This document shows, piece by piece, positions 12,710-54,384 of a DNA stretch of 64,000 nt. The translations under genes and the position numbers were made by a program. Source of the DNA: Aquirufa antheringensis. Its GTDB lineage: Bacteria; Bacteroidota; Bacteroidia; Cytophagales; Spirosomataceae. The notes under the pieces were generated by a model, which saw only the letters and a program-made list of their open reading frames with translations, made no database searches and was not told where the DNA came from. Location of the stretch: assembly GCF_004307425.1 (NCBI RefSeq), contig NZ_SEWZ01000001.1, positions 63,662 to 127,661 on the forward strand, in the 5' to 3' direction. Numbering within the stretch: the first letter of the stretch is position 1; each line of letters begins with the position of its first letter.

Positions 12710-13249
12710 TTACTCTTCTTTTGATGAATTTTTATAGAACGCGCTTAATGCTAAGGCTAGGAAAAGATTGATTGCTACCGTTTTTGCGTAATCTTTAGTC
12801 ATTTTTGCGCTTTCAAAACTTTTTGTTATTTCCTCCTGTCTTTTCTGTAAAGAGGAGTCCTTATTCTCAATTGTTAAGCTATTCTTTGCTTCTACTTCTT
12901 CTATTCTATCCCTCGAGTTTTGAGTTTTTTTCTCAGCGTAAATTACTTTATACTCCGGGAAGAAGTAATTGTAAAAAGCTAGATTGAAGGCAAATATCAG
13001 TGAGTGAGCAGTTAGAAAAATAAGTAAGTAATTGATAAAGCGATTTTTGTAATAGCTTGAATAAGAGTCTAAGATCTTTTTTAATAAATAGATTGGGATA
13101 GCGATAAAAGCAATTAAAAAACAAATTCTCAGAATAGTGATGATACCTGTACTATCACTGAAAGTGTCTGCTAAAATTAGGATGATTCCAATCAGACCCA
13201 AAATAAGTCCTAATTGAATAGTTGACTGAAGTATTTTACTTGTTTTCAT
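12710..13249 (-). CDS. Membrane protein (DUF4199-like?), last gene of the peptide/ABC operon
   Basis: A 179-aa protein with four predicted membrane helices: two near the N-terminus (~12-28, 37-57), one at ~70-95 and one near the C-terminus (~157-172). A charged, coiled-coil-like loop lies at ~105-150 ('RIEEVEAKNSLTIENKDSSLQKRQEEI'). The layout resembles the DUF4199 family of Bacteroidota, but I am not certain. Its start overlaps the previous permease gene by 14 nt, so it belongs to the same operon. The DNA is clearly more AT-rich than the flanking genes. Function unknown; an accessory or immunity role for the transporter is only a guess. Confidence 0.7.
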   Translation of the reverse strand: MKTSKILQSTIQLGLILGLIGIILILADTFSDSTGIITILRICFLIAFIAIPIYLLKKILDSYSSYYKNRFINYLLIFLTAHSLIFAFNLAFYNYFFPEYKVIYAEKKTQNSRDRIEEVEAKNSLTIENKDSSLQKRQEEITKSFESAKMTKDYAKTVAINLFLALALSAFYKNSSKEE

Positions 13250-13961
13250 TTTGGAATTTTCTATTTAAAAACAGAACCAACAGGGTAGAAAATATAAAAT
13301 ATAAATAAAAGTATTTGATAGGGTGGTTTTCATAAAATGAAAGGATGATGTTTTGCTTGGTATAAATATTGTATGATAAAATCAATTTGCCCCAACTAGT
13401 AGGAAGCCAAAAGAAAGAATCAAAATAGCTTAAAATGGAAAAGAAAAAGTGTATTAGGTATAAGTAGGTTGTGTTTTTAAAGTAGTAAAAAAAGGAAGTT
13501 ATTATATAAATATAGGGAATAGAAAAAAGGAGGTAGGTAATCAGATTTTGAATAATAAACGATCTTGAATCTATGGGCGAATTAGGTAATTTCAACTCCA
13601 TGAAGAAAATGTACACGATTGAAAAAATACTCTCAATCAGTAAGAATAGTATGATTTTTGAGTGTATTTGAGAAAGTTTGCTAGGAGGAATTATTTCAAT
13701 TCTGTTTCGGAAATCATTTTCCAGATCTACTTGTAAATAGGATATAAATACAAAAGGGTAGATAATTAATAAACAAAAATTTAAAACTTTAAAGCTGAAA
13801 GAAACTTCTTGTAAATACAATTGATTAATAAGGCTTCCTTCTGAAGTGATATTAAAATTAAGGAGCAGTAAAATGAAGGAAAATAGAATACCACCCGTTG
13901 CTAACAGAAGCTTTTTGCTTTTGAAATAGAGATAGAGATTATATTTTAAAAGATTTTGCAT
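13236..13961 (-). CDS. ABC-2-like permease subunit, peptide/ABC operon
   Basis: A 241-aa integral membrane protein with six hydrophobic segments (~18-35, 55-75, 103-121, 135-160, 165-185, 213-233) and a basic N-terminal start, the layout of ABC-2-type permeases such as LanE/LanG. It follows the other permease with no intergenic base (13962/13961) and overlaps the next gene by 14 nt. The ATPase is two genes upstream. Its codons are AT-rich (many Ile, Phe, Tyr, Asn). By context it is one half of the membrane pore; I cannot name the transported substrate. Confidence 0.75.
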   Translation of the reverse strand: MQNLLKYNLYLYFKSKKLLLATGGILFSFILLLLNFNITSEGSLINQLYLQEVSFSFKVLNFCLLIIYPFVFISYLQVDLENDFRNRIEIIPPSKLSQIHSKIILFLLIESIFSIVYIFFMELKLPNSPIDSRSFIIQNLITYLLFSIPYIYIITSFFYYFKNTTYLYLIHFFFSILSYFDSFFWLPTSWGKLILSYNIYTKQNIILSFYENHPIKYFYLYFIFSTLLVLFLNRKFQNENK

Positions 13962-14600
13962 CTATTTGTAGGTAACAGTTTTTAATAATTTAACATTTTC
14001 ACTGCCAATTGCATGGTTTGTGGAATTCAAAAGAAGTAATAGAATTGATCCAATTAATAGGATAATGGTCTTGTTCAGTTTGTAACAATAATTCGCAACA
14101 AAAACGACAAGAGGTAGCACTACTAGTGCTTCTATTGTCATTTGGTAGAAATAGTTTGTTTTAGTAATAGGGCTATTCTCCCAATAGTGAATCGGAATAT
14201 AAGAGTCGAATTCTTTGTTTAACAATATGCTAAGGACTAACGTGAATAATGATAATAGCAGCGTGTTAACTAGTAGGTTTCCAATAAGCTCATTCCTCTT
14301 GTTTATTGGTAAAAGTTTCAGGTTTTTACTATTAACGTTTTGAGATAAAAACAGATCAAAATAAAAGACAGCTATTAAAAGCAAGACAACATTTTTATGT
14401 ATGACACTTAATTTATAAAAACAGTAAGTCGTATAGCTGCAGTTCGGTTTGTCTACATATTCAAAAAGTAGCACAGAGTTTGATTTAAAATGTAAAAAGG
14501 CAGCCAGCTGAATCAATAGGACTAGGAGCATGGCAATGATTGCGTTTCTTTTGAACGAGGACTTTATTAGTTCGAATTTGATATAAGTTAGGACCGTCAA
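13962..14600 (-). CDS. ABC-2-like permease subunit, peptide/ABC operon
   Basis: A 212-aa membrane protein with about six hydrophobic segments (~18-35, 70-86, 107-126, 155-170, 173-195 and a weaker one). A soluble loop at ~38-65 contains cysteines ('KPNCSYTTYCFYKL') that may face the periplasm. It lies 26 nt downstream of the ATPase gene and abuts the second permease. Two small unequal permeases plus a ~215-aa ATPase is the build of LanFEG-type peptide immunity/export transporters. That comparison rests on architecture, not on sequence identity I can measure. Confidence 0.75.
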   Translation of the reverse strand: MTVLTYIKFELIKSSFKRNAIIAMLLVLLIQLAAFLHFKSNSVLLFEYVDKPNCSYTTYCFYKLSVIHKNVVLLLIAVFYFDLFLSQNVNSKNLKLLPINKRNELIGNLLVNTLLLSLFTLVLSILLNKEFDSYIPIHYWENSPITKTNYFYQMTIEALVVLPLVVFVANYCYKLNKTIILLIGSILLLLLNSTNHAIGSENVKLLKTVTYK

Positions 14601-14626
14601 ATTTATTCCTGTTTAGGTAATATTTT

Positions 14627-15274
14627 CTAGTTTACTAGTATTTCCCCGTTCGTAATTTGGACGACTTTTGTGTCGAAAAGGGCAATTTCCTTCTCGTTAT
14701 TCGAAGCAATGATAAATTGCATGTTTTTATACTGAGAATAATCTCGAATAATAGAATGAATTAATGCGGCATTCTCAGAATCTAAATTCGATGTGGGTTC
14801 ATCTAAAAGAACAAGTTGGGGCTTATGTTGCATAGCCAAAAATAGGTCAAGTCGCTTTCTTTGACCGACCGATAGTTCATTCGCTTTTTTAGTAGAAATC
14901 TCAGCTAAATTCAAGGAATTAAATAATGAACTACGATAATCATGGGGGGCTAATGGATATAAATAACTGATAAGGCGTTTGTTTTCTTCAACGCTTAGAT
15001 GGTTGTAAGAAAGGCCGTTATGAAGACAAACGCCTATCTTACTTAGCCAATTTGTTCTCGTTTTTTCGTTTAGCTCATTTTGATCAATCAGCACTTGGCC
15101 CTCGATCGTACGAATACCATTATAAAATACTTTTAAAAATGAAGTTTTACCTGAACCATTACTCCCTTTAATGAATACAACTTTGTCTTCATGAGTTAAT
15201 TCTAGATGAGGGATTTTAATAGCTGGTTCACCTTTAATGTAACCAGCTATTAAATGACTTATAGAAATATTCAT
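14627..15274 (-). CDS. ABC transporter ATP-binding protein of the small-peptide operon
   Basis: A 215-aa nucleotide-binding subunit. Walker A is G37-SNGSGKT-44, the signature is 'LSVGQRKRL' at 134-142, Walker B is 'LVLLDEP' at 154-160, and the D-loop 'SNLD' follows. The switch (H-loop) position reads 'IIASNNEKE', with Asn192 where nearly all transporters carry His, so turnover may be slow or regulated. It begins one base after the peptide gene stop (TAA-A-ATG), so the two are surely co-transcribed. Two permease genes follow. Likely role: moving a peptide or lipid across the inner membrane, in export or self-protection. Confidence 0.88.
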   Translation of the reverse strand: MNISISHLIAGYIKGEPAIKIPHLELTHEDKVVFIKGSNGSGKTSFLKVFYNGIRTIEGQVLIDQNELNEKTRTNWLSKIGVCLHNGLSYNHLSVEENKRLISYLYPLAPHDYRSSLFNSLNLAEISTKKANELSVGQRKRLDLFLAMQHKPQLVLLDEPTSNLDSENAALIHSIIRDYSQYKNMQFIIASNNEKEIALFDTKVVQITNGEILVN

Positions 15275-15275
15275 T

Positions 15276-15509
15276 TTAGTTTGGCCAAAAATTATCTACC
15301 GCTTGACGAAAACCGTTATTGCACTCAATAACAGACACTTGATAGGTAAATGTAATAATTTTTAAATCTATTTCAACTGTATAATAGGACAGCTTACAAA
15401 TAATTGAAACATCAGGTAGTTCACCCCTATCAATGGTAGTTTGTGCTCGAGAATTAATCGGCGATATAATTGTAGCTAACATCGCTATACTAAAGATTAA
15501 CTTTTTCAT
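15276..15509 (-). CDS. Small secreted two-cysteine peptide, locus 1 (77 aa)
   Basis: A signal peptide ('MKKLIFSIAMLATIISP...SRA', cut near 22-23) leads to a ~54-residue mature peptide with C38 and C63, which could form one disulfide. An in-frame ATG at 15530 exists. The ATG at 15509 is preferred because it begins the signal peptide and lies exactly 20 nt after a 35-nt element that has the same spacing before the peptide gene at 52618. The mature parts align: 'CKLSYYT' with 'CETVYWT', and 'ECNNGFRQAV' with 'VCSSSGNVNAV'. It heads the ABC operon. I do not recognise the family. Toxin, pheromone or structural peptide are all possible. Confidence 0.75.
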   Translation of the reverse strand: MKKLIFSIAMLATIISPINSRAQTTIDRGELPDVSIICKLSYYTVEIDLKIITFTYQVSVIECNNGFRQAVDNFWPN

Positions 15510-15529
15510 AAAAATTGAGTTTTTTTTCA

Positions 15530-15564
15530 TCCCTACTCTTGATTGGTTTTTCGGGTTTCACCAA
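15530..15564 (-). promoter_or_regulatory. Shared 35-nt leader element, copy 1 (possible H-type pseudoknot RNA)
   Basis: On the minus strand this stretch matches 52563-52597 at 30 of 35 positions. It reads UUGGU, a 12-nt loop GAAACCCGAAAA, ACCAA, then a linker and AGUAGGGA. UUGGU/ACCAA (15560-15564 with 15543-15547) gives a 5-bp stem. The loop CCC (15553-15555) can pair with the downstream GGG (15531-15533), forming an H-type pseudoknot. It ends 20 nt before the peptide start. It could instead be a protein operator; a riboswitch-like role is inference. It resembles no riboswitch consensus I know. Confidence 0.6.
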
Positions 15565-15830
15565 CACACTTGATTTCGATGGAAACGTAGTCTTTATTAT
15601 CCTATTCTGATAAGTTATTTCACAGGTAATTCCTTGGCTTTGGTACCGAAATAATCAGTATACAAGGCCCTAATCATCTACAGCAAGTATGATTAAAACA
15701 AATTATTAAGGGGGAGAACAGGATTATTGAAGCAGAAAAGAGTCAATAATACAAAGGGATATAAGTGGTCGGAGAATTCGATTTCATCTAAACCACGATT
15801 TAAATGTAGCGTATTAAAACGAATAAACAA
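15565..15830 (-). other. Non-coding upstream region of the peptide/ABC operon
   Basis: About 270 nt without a convincing gene. On the minus strand it holds an inverted repeat TAATCAT/ATGATTA (15671-15695, 11-nt loop) and CCA/TGG and CTAC/GTAG segments just before the 35-nt element. It is AT-rich and probably carries the operon promoter, but I see no clean TAnnTTTG box. Confidence 0.4.
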
Positions 15831-52215: not shown

Positions 52216-52446
52216 ATGACACAACACCTAACTCTACCTAATAATTTTGATTTTACTTCTCGAGAAGCTCAAGTTATTCAATTTTCTAAGGATAATTTTA
52301 CATGCAAAGAAATTGCCGAACATTTATTTATTTCTGAAAATACGGTGCGTAAACATCGTCGAAATATCATGACTAAAATAGGTGTTTCAGGTAAAAAGGA
52401 TTTCAGAAAATTTCTTCGGGACTATCCCTCCCTTCTTTTCAAATAA
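52216..52446 (+). CDS. LuxR/GerE-type HTH-only transcription regulator
   Basis: A 76-aa protein that is almost only a GerE DNA-binding domain: 'FTSREAQVIQFSKDNFTCKEIAEHLFISENTVRKHRRNIMTKIGVSGKKDFRKFL', where 'CKEIAEHLFISENTVRKHRRNI' positions cover the helix-turn-helix. There is no receiver or ligand domain. The ATG at 52216 is used because the promoter above would place the transcript start after an earlier in-frame ATG at 52147. It is the first gene of the island and the natural candidate to control the peptide gene 170 nt downstream, and perhaps the related locus at 15.5 kb. Confidence 0.85.
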   Translation: MTQHLTLPNNFDFTSREAQVIQFSKDNFTCKEIAEHLFISENTVRKHRRNIMTKIGVSGKKDFRKFLRDYPSLLFK

Positions 52447-52494
52447 TAAGAATTATTATACATTTTATTGTAACAATTTAATTTTATACTACAA

Positions 52495-52566
52495 AAATAC
52501 TACATTAGGTAGTATTTGCCAGATAAAGGATTGCTAATACCTTTAAACCAAGTTTCGAAGCCTTGG
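52495..52566 (+). promoter_or_regulatory. Structured 5' leader of the locus-2 peptide gene
   Basis: Three hairpins follow one another: AAATACTAC/GTAGTATTT (52495-52517, 9 bp, loop ATTAG), TAAAGG/CCTTTA (52524-52545) and CCAAG/CTTGG (52548-52566). The last overlaps the UUGGU arm of the shared 35-nt element, so the two folds exclude each other. This looks like a regulatory RNA switch; function is inferred. Confidence 0.5.
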
Positions 52567-52597
52567 TGAATCCCGAAAAACCACTAAGCAGTAGGGA
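52563..52597 (+). promoter_or_regulatory. Shared 35-nt leader element, copy 2 (possible H-type pseudoknot RNA)
   Basis: It matches copy 1 (15530-15564, minus strand) at 30 of 35 bases. UGGU (52564-52567) pairs with ACCA (52580-52583). The loop CCC (52572-52574) can pair with GGG (52594-52596). It ends exactly 20 nt before the peptide ATG, the same distance as in copy 1. Confidence 0.6.
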
Positions 52598-52617
52598 AAA
52601 AATCTAATGTATTCATT

Positions 52618-52803
52618 ATGAAAAAGTTACTCTCTTTAGTTGTCCTTGGGCTCGCGCCCTTTATCAGTAGTGCGGAATATTGTGAAACAGTCTACTGGAC
52701 TTCATCCCACAATGTTGATTATGGTTACAAAGTATGTTCATCAAGTGGAAATGTAAACGCAGTTCAAAGTTACATAGCTATGCTAAAACGGACCTCATAT
52801 TAA
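52618..52803 (+). CDS. Small secreted two-cysteine peptide, locus 2 (61 aa)
   Basis: A Sec signal peptide ('MKKLLSLVVLGLAPFISSA', cut near 19) leads to a ~42-residue mature peptide rich in Ser, Tyr and Val, with C22 and C40. It aligns with the locus-1 peptide at 15276: C-x3-Y-[YW]-T around the first cysteine, and C-x(2,3)-G-x3-A-V around the second. A strong terminator follows directly, so the peptide mRNA is probably made in excess of the genes behind it. I know no family with this pattern. It could be a bacteriocin-like, signal or surface peptide, perhaps modified by the UGT-like enzyme in the island. Confidence 0.72.
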   Translation: MKKLLSLVVLGLAPFISSAEYCETVYWTSSHNVDYGYKVCSSSGNVNAVQSYIAMLKRTSY

Positions 52804-52808
52804 TTTTT

Positions 52809-52848
52809 AAAGAGAATGGATTTGATTTTTAGATCCATTCTCTTTTTA
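52809..52848 (+). terminator. Terminator/attenuator between the peptide and the GLPGLI genes
   Basis: AAAGAGAATGGAT (52809-52821) pairs with ATCCATTCTCTTT (52833-52845), followed by Ts. The stem is 13 bp. No new promoter is obvious before 52865, so partial read-through may feed the downstream genes. Confidence 0.85.
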
Positions 52849-52864
52849 CTAAAACTATTTGACT

Positions 52865-53596
52865 ATGAAAAAGTACGTTATTGTAATTCTTTTATCCTTA
52901 TTGCCGCGTATGTTTTTAGCGCAAAATGGCATTATTGTCACGTATGAAGAAAATCAATTTGGGAATACCAATACAATGCGATTGACTAGTAATGGAGAAA
53001 TGAGTATCTATAAAATGATGGCGAGAAAGGAGCGACAACAAAATCCAGCTCAAGTAATGAGAGCAATACAAGATATGGACAAAAACGCTATTTATCTTGT
53101 GAAACTTTTTAAGGATAATAAAATTTTGTATCCCGCGATTCGTGTTTTTGATCGAAAAAAAGAGATTATTTCCGATTCTTTAAATTCAATCAAATGGAAA
53201 ATTATGTCTAATATTCCACCGACAAAGTACCTAGGTAGAAAAGTGAAAATAGCTAAATGTCGATTTCGGGAGAGAAACTATATCGCTTATTATTGTCCCG
53301 ATATCCCTATTTCTGATGGGCCCTTTAAATTTAATGGGTTACCAGGTATAATATTGAAAATAGAAACCGATGATCACATGTTTTCTTTTTCAGCGACAAA
53401 AATTGAGTTTGTAGAGAATCCTCAGATTAAGATAGCGCCCAAGTATTTCAGCAATCAAATTCCATTTTGGGCCTATGTGAAGTTAGCCAAAAAAGAAATG
53501 GCAGAAAATTATAAACAGTTTTTGTCTACTCTGCCTCCAGATCAAAGGAATACAAAATTTGATGTGAAAATCGACAGGCTCGAAATGGTATTTTGA
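52865..53596 (+). CDS. GLPGLI family protein, paralogue 1
   Basis: A 243-aa exported protein. The ATG at 52865 begins the signal peptide ('MKKYVIVILLSLLPRMFLAQ'). The family motif appears as 'ISDGPFKFNGLPGIILKIETDD' positions ~155-176, preceded by 'KYLGRKVKIAKCRFRERNYIAYYCPDIP'. GLPGLI proteins are specific to Bacteroidota and often sit beside outer-membrane receptor genes; no biochemical role is established. It has a second paralogue directly downstream. Confidence 0.88.
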   Translation: MKKYVIVILLSLLPRMFLAQNGIIVTYEENQFGNTNTMRLTSNGEMSIYKMMARKERQQNPAQVMRAIQDMDKNAIYLVKLFKDNKILYPAIRVFDRKKEIISDSLNSIKWKIMSNIPPTKYLGRKVKIAKCRFRERNYIAYYCPDIPISDGPFKFNGLPGIILKIETDDHMFSFSATKIEFVENPQIKIAPKYFSNQIPFWAYVKLAKKEMAENYKQFLSTLPPDQRNTKFDVKIDRLEMVF

Positions 53597-53631
53597 GCCG
53601 GAATAATATAACAAAGCTAAATTTTACAATT

Positions 53632-54384
53632 ATGAAATGTCTTAAACAGGTGTTGTCGTTTTGCTTTATCCTTTTGTCGAATGTAGTGGTTGCGCAATCT
53701 TCTATCTCAGTTGAATACAAAGAATGGTGTCCGCTTCCTGACTATATTTCTGGTGGTACAAATATTCATAAATTGATTCTTTATCCTACTTATTCGGTTT
53801 ATTTTCAATCTAAATTCATTAAAAATAATTCGCCCTATTTTGCGGCTTCGGAACCTGAGGATACATTCAAAAAGGCCAATGATTTATTGTTTAAGTTTTA
53901 CCAAGGCAAGAAGATTCTGTTTCTTTCACCGAAAATCAATAAGGCCTATTTTGTGGTATCTGATTCGTTGAATTTGATGAAATGGAAAATTCAAAAATCA
54001 AAACCTATTCGGTATTTGGGATTAGATTGTTATGAAGCTAAAGCGCATTTTAGAGGAAGAAATTATACCGCCTATTTTGCTCCTAAAATAAAGAAATCGG
54101 ATGGGCCATTTAAGTTTTCTGGACTTCCAGGTTTGATTATTAAAGTTGCTGCTGATGATAATTATACTATTTGGCAAGCGATCAAAATCAATTACAACGA
54201 AAAAGCTAATGTAGGAATAACTGAAAAATTCAAGGAAAAACCTGTACCGTTTCATACCTATGCTAGTTGGCAAAAAATGGAAGACAAAAGAGCGATTAAA
54301 GATTTGATAAAAAGGTATCCTGCGCCTCCAGGTGAAATACGTATTCATGAATTTCCGCACTTAGAAAAAAACCTTCAGCTTTAA
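53632..54384 (+). CDS. GLPGLI family protein, paralogue 2
   Basis: A 250-aa exported protein with a signal peptide ('MKCLKQVLSFCFILLSNVVVAQ'). The exact 'FSGLPGLIIKV' motif occurs at ~163-173 after 'PIRYLGLDCYEAKAHFRGRNYTAYFAPKIKKSDGPF' positions. It is clearly a tandem duplicate of the previous gene ('RYLG...AHFRGRNYTAYF' against 'KYLG...CRFRERNYIAYY'). The start is 35 nt after the previous stop. Likely envelope-located; role unknown. Confidence 0.87.
   Translation: MKCLKQVLSFCFILLSNVVVAQSSISVEYKEWCPLPDYISGGTNIHKLILYPTYSVYFQSKFIKNNSPYFAASEPEDTFKKANDLLFKFYQGKKILFLSPKINKAYFVVSDSLNLMKWKIQKSKPIRYLGLDCYEAKAHFRGRNYTAYFAPKIKKSDGPFKFSGLPGLIIKVAADDNYTIWQAIKINYNEKANVGITEKFKEKPVPFHTYASWQKMEDKRAIKDLIKRYPAPPGEIRIHEFPHLEKNLQL

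Follow-up and report, generated by a model that had tools for sequence, protein, structure and literature searches.

The window, the 64,000-nt stretch of DNA analyzed here, harbors two copies of a 35-nt element, each lying a short distance upstream of a gene for a small secreted peptide (Table 1). Copy A (minus strand, TTGGTGAAACCCGAAAAACCAATCAAGAGTAGGGA) and copy B (plus strand, TTGGTGAATCCCGAAAAACCACTAAGCAGTAGGGA) are identical at 30 of 35 bases, and the runner-up match to either copy elsewhere in the window reaches 22 of 35. When base composition only is considered, about 3e-4 pairs of such quality are expected by chance per orientation, or about 0.0006 in total. Both copies are followed by 20 nt and then ATGAAAAAG. 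For copy A this distance presumes the second ATG, since ORF 15276-15530 opens with a more upstream, in-frame ATG that overlaps the element by one base, its last. Counted from AGTAGG, and again assuming the second ATG for copy A, the distance to ATG is 22 nt in both copies; relatives show this spacing most often (20 of the 151 listed that lie within 60 nt). The near-identity of the copies and their placement 20 nt before a peptide ATG, as described in a first-pass annotation of this DNA, are thus borne out.

The same annotation had proposed an H-type pseudoknot, and its two components, a UUGGU/ACCA stem (P1) and a CCC/GGG pseudoknot pairing, are present in both copies, with both helices covarying across relatives (see below). 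The CCGAAAA loop and the AGUAGG tail are likewise exact in both, while the base preceding AGUAGG is C in copy B and G in most relatives. Fold energies from a plain secondary-structure method that cannot model pseudoknots are unremarkable (z of 0.41 and -0.20 for the two copies), and for copy B this method favors another, upstream hairpin; an upstream competitor pairing, ACCAAG/CUUGGU, is found in this copy.

On the minus strand (13236-15509), peptide A, an ABC transporter ATPase and two probable membrane proteins form an arrangement that resembles peptide export or immunity operons. On the plus strand (52216-54381), a stand-alone GerE-type HTH protein precedes copy B (the LuxR-like protein at 52216; GerE domain, E 3.3e-14), and peptide B is followed by two Porph_ging proteins, the second of which scores slightly below the Pfam cut-off. 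Elsewhere in the window, a TPP riboswitch (RF00059; 1982-2076, plus strand, 73.5 bits) precedes an ORF at 2172.

Table 1. Coordinates of the two elements, their predicted helices and their neighbors in the window
Feature	Position	Strand	Basis
Copy A, DUF805b-type element	15530..15564	-	RF02914 33.4 bits, E 2.4e-8, cut-off 35.6; independent model R2 36.2 bits, E 4.8e-10
Copy A, P1 5′ strand UUGGU (partner ACCAA, 15543-15547)	15560..15564	-	Sequence and P1 covariation
Copy A, P1 3′ strand ACCAA	15543..15547	-	Sequence and P1 covariation
Copy A, pseudoknot 5′ strand CCC	15553..15555	-	Outer pair covaries GC/UA/CG/AU
Copy A, pseudoknot 3′ strand GGG	15531..15533	-	Covariation
Possible -7 promoter box TACGTTTC (TAnnTTTG, one mismatch), 17 nt from copy A	15582..15589	-	Read from sequence; inferred via excess of exact box in relatives
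Small secreted peptide gene A, 77 aa (84 aa from ATG at 15530)	15276..15509	-	ORF; hydrophobic N-terminus (simple rule); no Pfam match
ABC transporter ATPase, directly downstream of peptide A	14627..15274	-	PF00005, E 4e-24
Two ORFs (212 and 241 aa) after the ATPase, probably membrane proteins	13236..14600	-	No Pfam match; membrane nature judged by eye
Copy B, DUF805b-type element	52563..52597	+	RF02914 16.8 bits, E 0.011; R2 19.6 bits, E 1.5e-4
Copy B, P1 5′ strand UUGGU (UGGU pairs with ACCA, 52580-52583)	52563..52567	+	Sequence and covariation
Copy B, P1 3′ strand ACCA	52580..52583	+	Sequence and covariation
Copy B, pseudoknot 5′ strand CCC	52572..52574	+	Covariation
Copy B, pseudoknot 3′ strand GGG	52594..52596	+	Covariation
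Possible -7 promoter box TACCTTTA (one mismatch), 17 nt from copy B	52538..52545	+	Read from sequence; inferred
Small secreted peptide gene B, 61 aa	52618..52803	+	ORF; hydrophobic N-terminus (simple rule); no Pfam match

Relationship to DUF805b and DUF805 RNAs

By sequence and structural alignment, copies A and B are divergent members of an already catalogued family, DUF805b (RF02914, clan CL00115), rather than a new element. A permissive Rfam scan aligns both copies end to end with RF02914, at 33.4 bits (E 2.4e-8) for copy A and 16.8 bits (E 0.011) for copy B. Both scores lie below the curated cut-off of 35.6 bits, which is the curators' score line and no structural feature, and neither copy appears in the list from a default Rfam scan. 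The apparent lack of a known consensus, taken at first as a sign of novelty, therefore does not hold; of the earlier suggestion of a new cis-regulatory RNA, the selected cis-acting RNA survives, given the covariation, and the novelty does not.

Several features are shared between the window copies and DUF805b: the 35-position core, the P1 hairpin around CCGAAAA, the AGUAGG tail and a place directly upstream of ORFs (20 nt to ATG in the window). Apart from their scores below the cut-off, the window copies differ in the letters of P1 (UGGU/ACCA, as compared with the Rfam consensus AGGc/gCCU) and of the pseudoknot (CCC/GGG, as compared with gCC/GGc), and the genes downstream encode small secreted peptides rather than DUF805 proteins. 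The 3′ half of DUF805 RNA (RF03081), which belongs to the same clan, is the same kind of pseudoknot unit, but in DUF805 another such unit lies upstream of it, and the spacer is usually shorter. Its extra upstream hairpin, GUGG..CCAC followed by ACGGGG, is not found at the window copies, and an RF03081 search of the window's genome at E 1e-4 gave no match.

Two other small pseudoknots offer further comparison. The preQ1-I riboswitch is similar in size and has an H-type fold, but the genes downstream are unrelated, and preQ1 families are absent from the Rfam matches to copies A and B up to E 10. The leader of phage T4 gene 32 also contains a small pseudoknot, joined to the start codon by an unstructured A/U-rich leader, and acts on translation. 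That pseudoknot serves a single autoregulated gene, whereas DUF805b precedes many unrelated genes.

DUF805b is widespread in Bacteroidota and also occurs in some viral sequences. At E 1e-3, RF02914 matches were obtained in 118 of 395 genomes of the phylum, 76 of them above the cut-off and with up to 16 matches per genome, and in none of 14 control genomes. Further copies with covarying stem pairs, which the first-pass annotation had suggested looking for in Bacteroidota, do exist. Although the two copies noted there are both real, the window's genome has five clear copies, with RF02914 scores of 35.9, 33.4, 29.3, 23.0 and 16.8 bits, only the first of which passes the cut-off. All five score at least 30.5 bits with a custom model whose alignment includes four of them, and the next match scores 14.3. 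R2, a 58-sequence model that excludes same-genus copies, recovers the window copies at E 4.8e-10 and 1.5e-4, the next match having an E of 0.15. RF03081 matches (E 1e-4) occur in 62 of the 395 phylum genomes and in one control, Bacteroides ihuae. A DUF805 RNA is also seen in a Pseudomonas huaxiensis record (L089, 5989-6057, minus strand, 61.9 bits), before a small protein gene; this 8-kb locus has 63% G+C, and the gene plus its leader were possibly acquired by lateral transfer.

The DUF805 and DUF805b motifs reportedly come from the work of Weinberg and colleagues in 2017. In the open-access literature searched, DUF805b is named in no paper, and the papers that name DUF805 deal, to judge by their titles and abstract openings, with subjects other than this RNA; a search there for the DUF805 motif or for orphan pseudoknots in Bacteroidetes gave no result. 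As far as could be seen, both are orphan RNA families. Possibly new are the pseudoknot, the reading of DUF805 as a tandem and the copies in intercistronic positions, all described below.

Covariation of the pseudoknot and the architecture of DUF805

Pattern scans yielded at least 117 genome stretches and at least 120 viral stretches. The search pattern fixes CC and GG of the pseudoknot as well as CC of P1, such that the inner pseudoknot pairs cannot vary within the pattern set, while the outer pseudoknot pair (formed by the bases that precede CC and follow GG) was never a selection criterion. Among the matches listed, P1 pairing is carried by 164 of 271 pattern matches, comprising 89 of 124 in named genomes, 29 of 33 in the window's family and 46 of 114 in viral contigs. 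Pattern matches that lack P1 are mostly attributable to chance, with a few resembling true copies in another P1 register.

The unselected outer pair is Watson-Crick in 116 of the 164 listed matches with P1, where 44.5 are expected, and takes all four forms (GC 54, UA 33, CG 18, AU 11). It is likewise Watson-Crick in 41 of the 46 listed viral-contig matches with P1, as compared with 25 of the 107 listed matches that lack P1. Its presence varies with the spacer: among the matches listed, it is formed in 86 of 100 with 7-10 nt and in 26 of 56 with the 5 nt typical of DUF805, and the latter have A-A at this position in 16 of the 30 cases without the pair. In the 30 best Rfam-model loci, the three inner P1 positions are always paired, and at two of these positions all four Watson-Crick types occur. 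Pairing of the outer P1 position is seen in 22 of the 30, three times as wobble, and that of the outer pseudoknot position in 28.

Two alignments were compared with shuffled controls. A2 contains 74 of 78 candidate rows (L303, L306, L115 and the second L106 copy being left out), 46 of them pattern matches that passed filters for GG, an inner P1 base that pairs and a loop of five bases; the other 28 rows are Rfam-model matches. Paired cells amount to 98.4% in A2 and 77.9% in the shuffles, and covariation to 0.503 and 0.098, respectively, falling to at most 0.051 when the partners are slid. A3 retains 58 of these rows, without the nine from the window's genome and genus and without L319, L320, L060, L092, L159, L162 and the second L059 copy, and behaves similarly (paired cells 96.5% versus 75.0%; covariation 0.513 versus 0.120; slid, at most 0.054). 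Two of five measures in A2, the pairs changed on both sides (339/500) and the further pair types (463/500), are not above the shuffles because few pairs vary at all; in A3 one measure is not above them (379/500). On this comparative evidence, the H-type pseudoknot is a real folded RNA, both helices of which covary strongly. Fourteen columns are invariant in the 74 sequences, several of them unpaired, most being fixed by the search pattern in 46 of the 74 rows.

From alignment A4, which combines 29 of 30 RF03081 loci (the duplicate L350 being left out) with seven of eight further RF03081 matches (all but L164), we read DUF805 as two consecutive DUF805b-like pseudoknots with compensatory changes in both. 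In all cells counted, CC of the upstream hairpin loop is paired to the first GG of ACGGGG, the changes including UA, UG and GU, and in the downstream pseudoknot CU/AG replaces CC/GG in four of 36 sequences. The two-pseudoknot appearance was noted at L345, L352, L355, L356, L358, L362, L363 and L364. Against the tandem reading, 22 of 36 sequences do not form the outermost downstream pair, and sliding the partners by +2 leaves a covariation of 0.137, as compared with 0.186 observed, although the paired cells drop from 93.0% to 46.2%. Two DUF805b-like units directly in tandem ahead of one gene were also seen by eye at L154 and L163, the second unit of L163 scoring above the Rfam cut-off.

Position relative to genes

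Among the matches listed, AGUAGG is separated from the start codon by a median of 23 nt. A separation of 18-28 nt applies to 117 of 164 matches, made up of 88 of 118 cellular and 29 of 46 viral ones, as compared with 18 of 107 control matches. In 98 cellular copies among those listed, the spacer is poor in G (5.8% versus 14.3%) and seldom contains words resembling a Shine-Dalgarno (SD) sequence (2/98 versus 21/392). The openness of the start region is 0.586 for the element, 0.515 for other starts and 0.570 for G-poor control starts; the open, G-poor spacer is in part a general trait.

An exact TAnnTTTG box 18-48 nt upstream of the element is in excess among the matches listed, both in 116 cellular copies (12 versus 1.9 shuffled) and in 46 viral copies (3 versus 0.6), and therefore at least some elements would be situated near the 5′ end of a transcript. 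The box positions scatter, unlike the near-fixed spacing between element and start codon, and across all copies the upstream positions carry little information except A-richness near the element. A more local pattern is seen in genomes of the same genus (L326, L328, L329, L332, L334, L335), where about 60 nt upstream (CTACAAA...GAGCTTTACATCAAGTTGGCC) are common to different small peptide genes, which suggests duplicated promoter-leader units.

Of 152 copies examined among the matches listed, 12 are separated by less than 30 nt from a same-strand ORF that is 80 aa or longer. On several viral contigs, the element resides within short same-strand gene gaps, mostly 6-12 nt past a stop codon. The order stop, 10 nt, element, 26 nt, ATG occurs twice in succession on L256; the element lies 6 nt past an Erf-like gene on L242; two copies on L235 begin 7 and 12 nt past a stop, the latter following an ORF and preceding an exonuclease gene; and on L199 the start of the element touches the stop codon, with an HNH gene downstream. 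A promoter inside the upstream gene of such copies is possible. Ten proteins from these contigs were scanned, of which six match PHROGs; the four without a match come from L208, L268, L199 (where a second protein does match) and L256, the contig with the clearest intercistronic arrangement. The viral contigs may contain some host DNA. Searches for annotated phage relatives of two viral loci found none across the element, one being empty and the other matching 94 bases of the Erf-like gene at a distance from the element.

The genes downstream are diverse. Pfam was run on the 144 cellular proteins among 174 non-redundant downstream proteins, the 30 viral ones being left out, and 58 families were matched (for the matches listed). 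The best 25 of these 58 include DUF805 (11 proteins), SCO4226-like proteins (5), outer-membrane barrels, PixA, subtilases, DUF2589, and a single aquaporin-like channel and rhodopsin; shared but unnamed functions among proteins that match no Pfam family are possible. Small secreted peptides, with which the element was originally linked, are part of this set but too narrow a description of it: among the matches listed, 45 of 144 proteins have at most 100 aa, a simple rule assigns a hydrophobic N-terminus to 59 of 144, and a crude double-glycine leader rule applies to 12 of 144, two of them doubtful. Hydrophobic N-termini are found in 35 of 58 downstream proteins of at least 150 aa, as compared with 168 of 454 other, unvetted six-frame ORFs of the same loci. 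Two downstream proteins match a RiPP precursor family. By eye, the peptides encoded downstream at L005 (74 aa) and L147 (59 aa) resemble each other in their C-terminal part, GVLDGxKxNT...LFGxxIF, and differ in their N-terminal leaders, one resembling a signal peptide and the other a double-glycine leader.

A putative role in translation initiation

The two readings that place the element outside RNA function or treat it as mobile DNA fare poorly. It had been suggested that the element is a DNA site for the LuxR-like protein, whose gene lies upstream of copy B. This is rejected because covariation in two interleaved helices points to RNA; in addition, none of four Pfam-scanned ORFs downstream of copy A encodes a GerE protein, the copies are spread across the phylum and into viral contigs, and their position is tied to the start codon, so that a LuxR site seems scarcely credible. 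The end of a mobile cassette, or a recombination site copied along with small peptide genes, would account for the upstream leader of about 60 nt in same-genus genomes, where promoter and leader may sometimes be duplicated together, but covariation across families and the near-uninformative upstream positions make this very improbable.

Readings at the RNA level deserve more weight. A small-molecule riboswitch, in which an aptamer pseudoknot of preQ1-I size would sense a global signal and gate the start codon, is conceivable, if doubtful. The 35-nt length, the H-type fold and the tandem copies, as seen with some riboswitches, are in keeping with it, and a ligand-binding aptamer could likewise explain the strong conservation of unpaired bases, with the reservation that the pattern itself fixed most of the 14 invariant columns in 46 of 74 rows. 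No common pathway is visible among the 58 downstream families, though, a terminator would hardly fit into the spacer of about 23 nt, and copies lie intercistronically ahead of a viral exonuclease gene and an HNH gene. Anti-aptamer pairing with the flanks is also not above chance: the P1 5′ strand pairs with upstream sequence in 3 of 163 listed matches, copy B being one of them, as compared with 3.5 in shuffles, and pairing with the next 60 nt was found five times for GUAGG (4.0 shuffled) and twice for GAGUA (7.0). An element of mRNA stability or processing, whether a protective structure at the 5′ end or a landing site for an RNase, appears rather unlikely. A stabilizing role at the mRNA 5′ end is possible given the promoter-box excess, and the intercistronic copies are potential processing sites; yet the near-fixed distance to the start codon is unneeded for stability alone, while the promoter box scatters.

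We somewhat favor the reading of DUF805b as a cis-acting RNA that is recognized at translation initiation, by the ribosome or a general RNA-binding factor rather than by a pathway-specific metabolite. What leads us to prefer it to a DNA site, a terminator switch or a riboswitch tied to one pathway is the structure itself, where it stands with respect to the start codon, the absence of visible alternative pairing, the diversity of the genes and the intercistronic copies; the family relation and the covariation were counted in its favor as well. The element is an H-type pseudoknot of about 30 nt in an mRNA 5′ leader or intercistronic gap, with P1 formed by GGN/N′CC plus an outer pair in many copies, the pseudoknot helix by XCC/GGX′, and GAAAA and AGAGUA conserved and unpaired. 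About 20 nt of G-poor sequence then lead to the start codon. In the proposed mechanism, the folded RNA would sit just upstream of the area covered by an initiating 30S subunit, and its presumed reader, the ribosome or a general RNA-binding factor, would raise or gate the initiation of that one gene in cis. The setting for this would be bacteria whose ribosomes ignore SD sequences.

According to passages of PMC9976891, the ribosomes of Bacteroidia do not recognize the SD sequence, the 16S tail being held by bS21, bS18 and bS6. Where SD sequences go unread, a structured start-site signal would be useful, which makes a link to DUF805b conceivable; such a conserved signal would have consequences for the selection of genes for translation there. 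The pseudoknot, the tandem build of DUF805, the near-fixed start distance and the viral intercistronic copies together narrow what DUF805 and DUF805b can be. A broader version of the translation-initiation reading is offered tentatively: the DUF805/DUF805b pseudoknot might be a portable, SD-independent translation signal of Bacteroidota, located about 23 nt before the start codon, read directly by the initiating ribosome or, alternatively, a general factor at the ribosome's mRNA exit, and used singly or in tandem in host genes and between genes of one transcript in their phages.

Two RNA-binding proteins, Hfq and CsrA, were considered as general readers and rejected in that role. The former is present in none of the 395 phylum genomes, and the latter, present in 53 of the 395, is absent from the window's genome. 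Compared by eye, the CsrA-containing genomes include ten of the 118 that are positive for RF02914.
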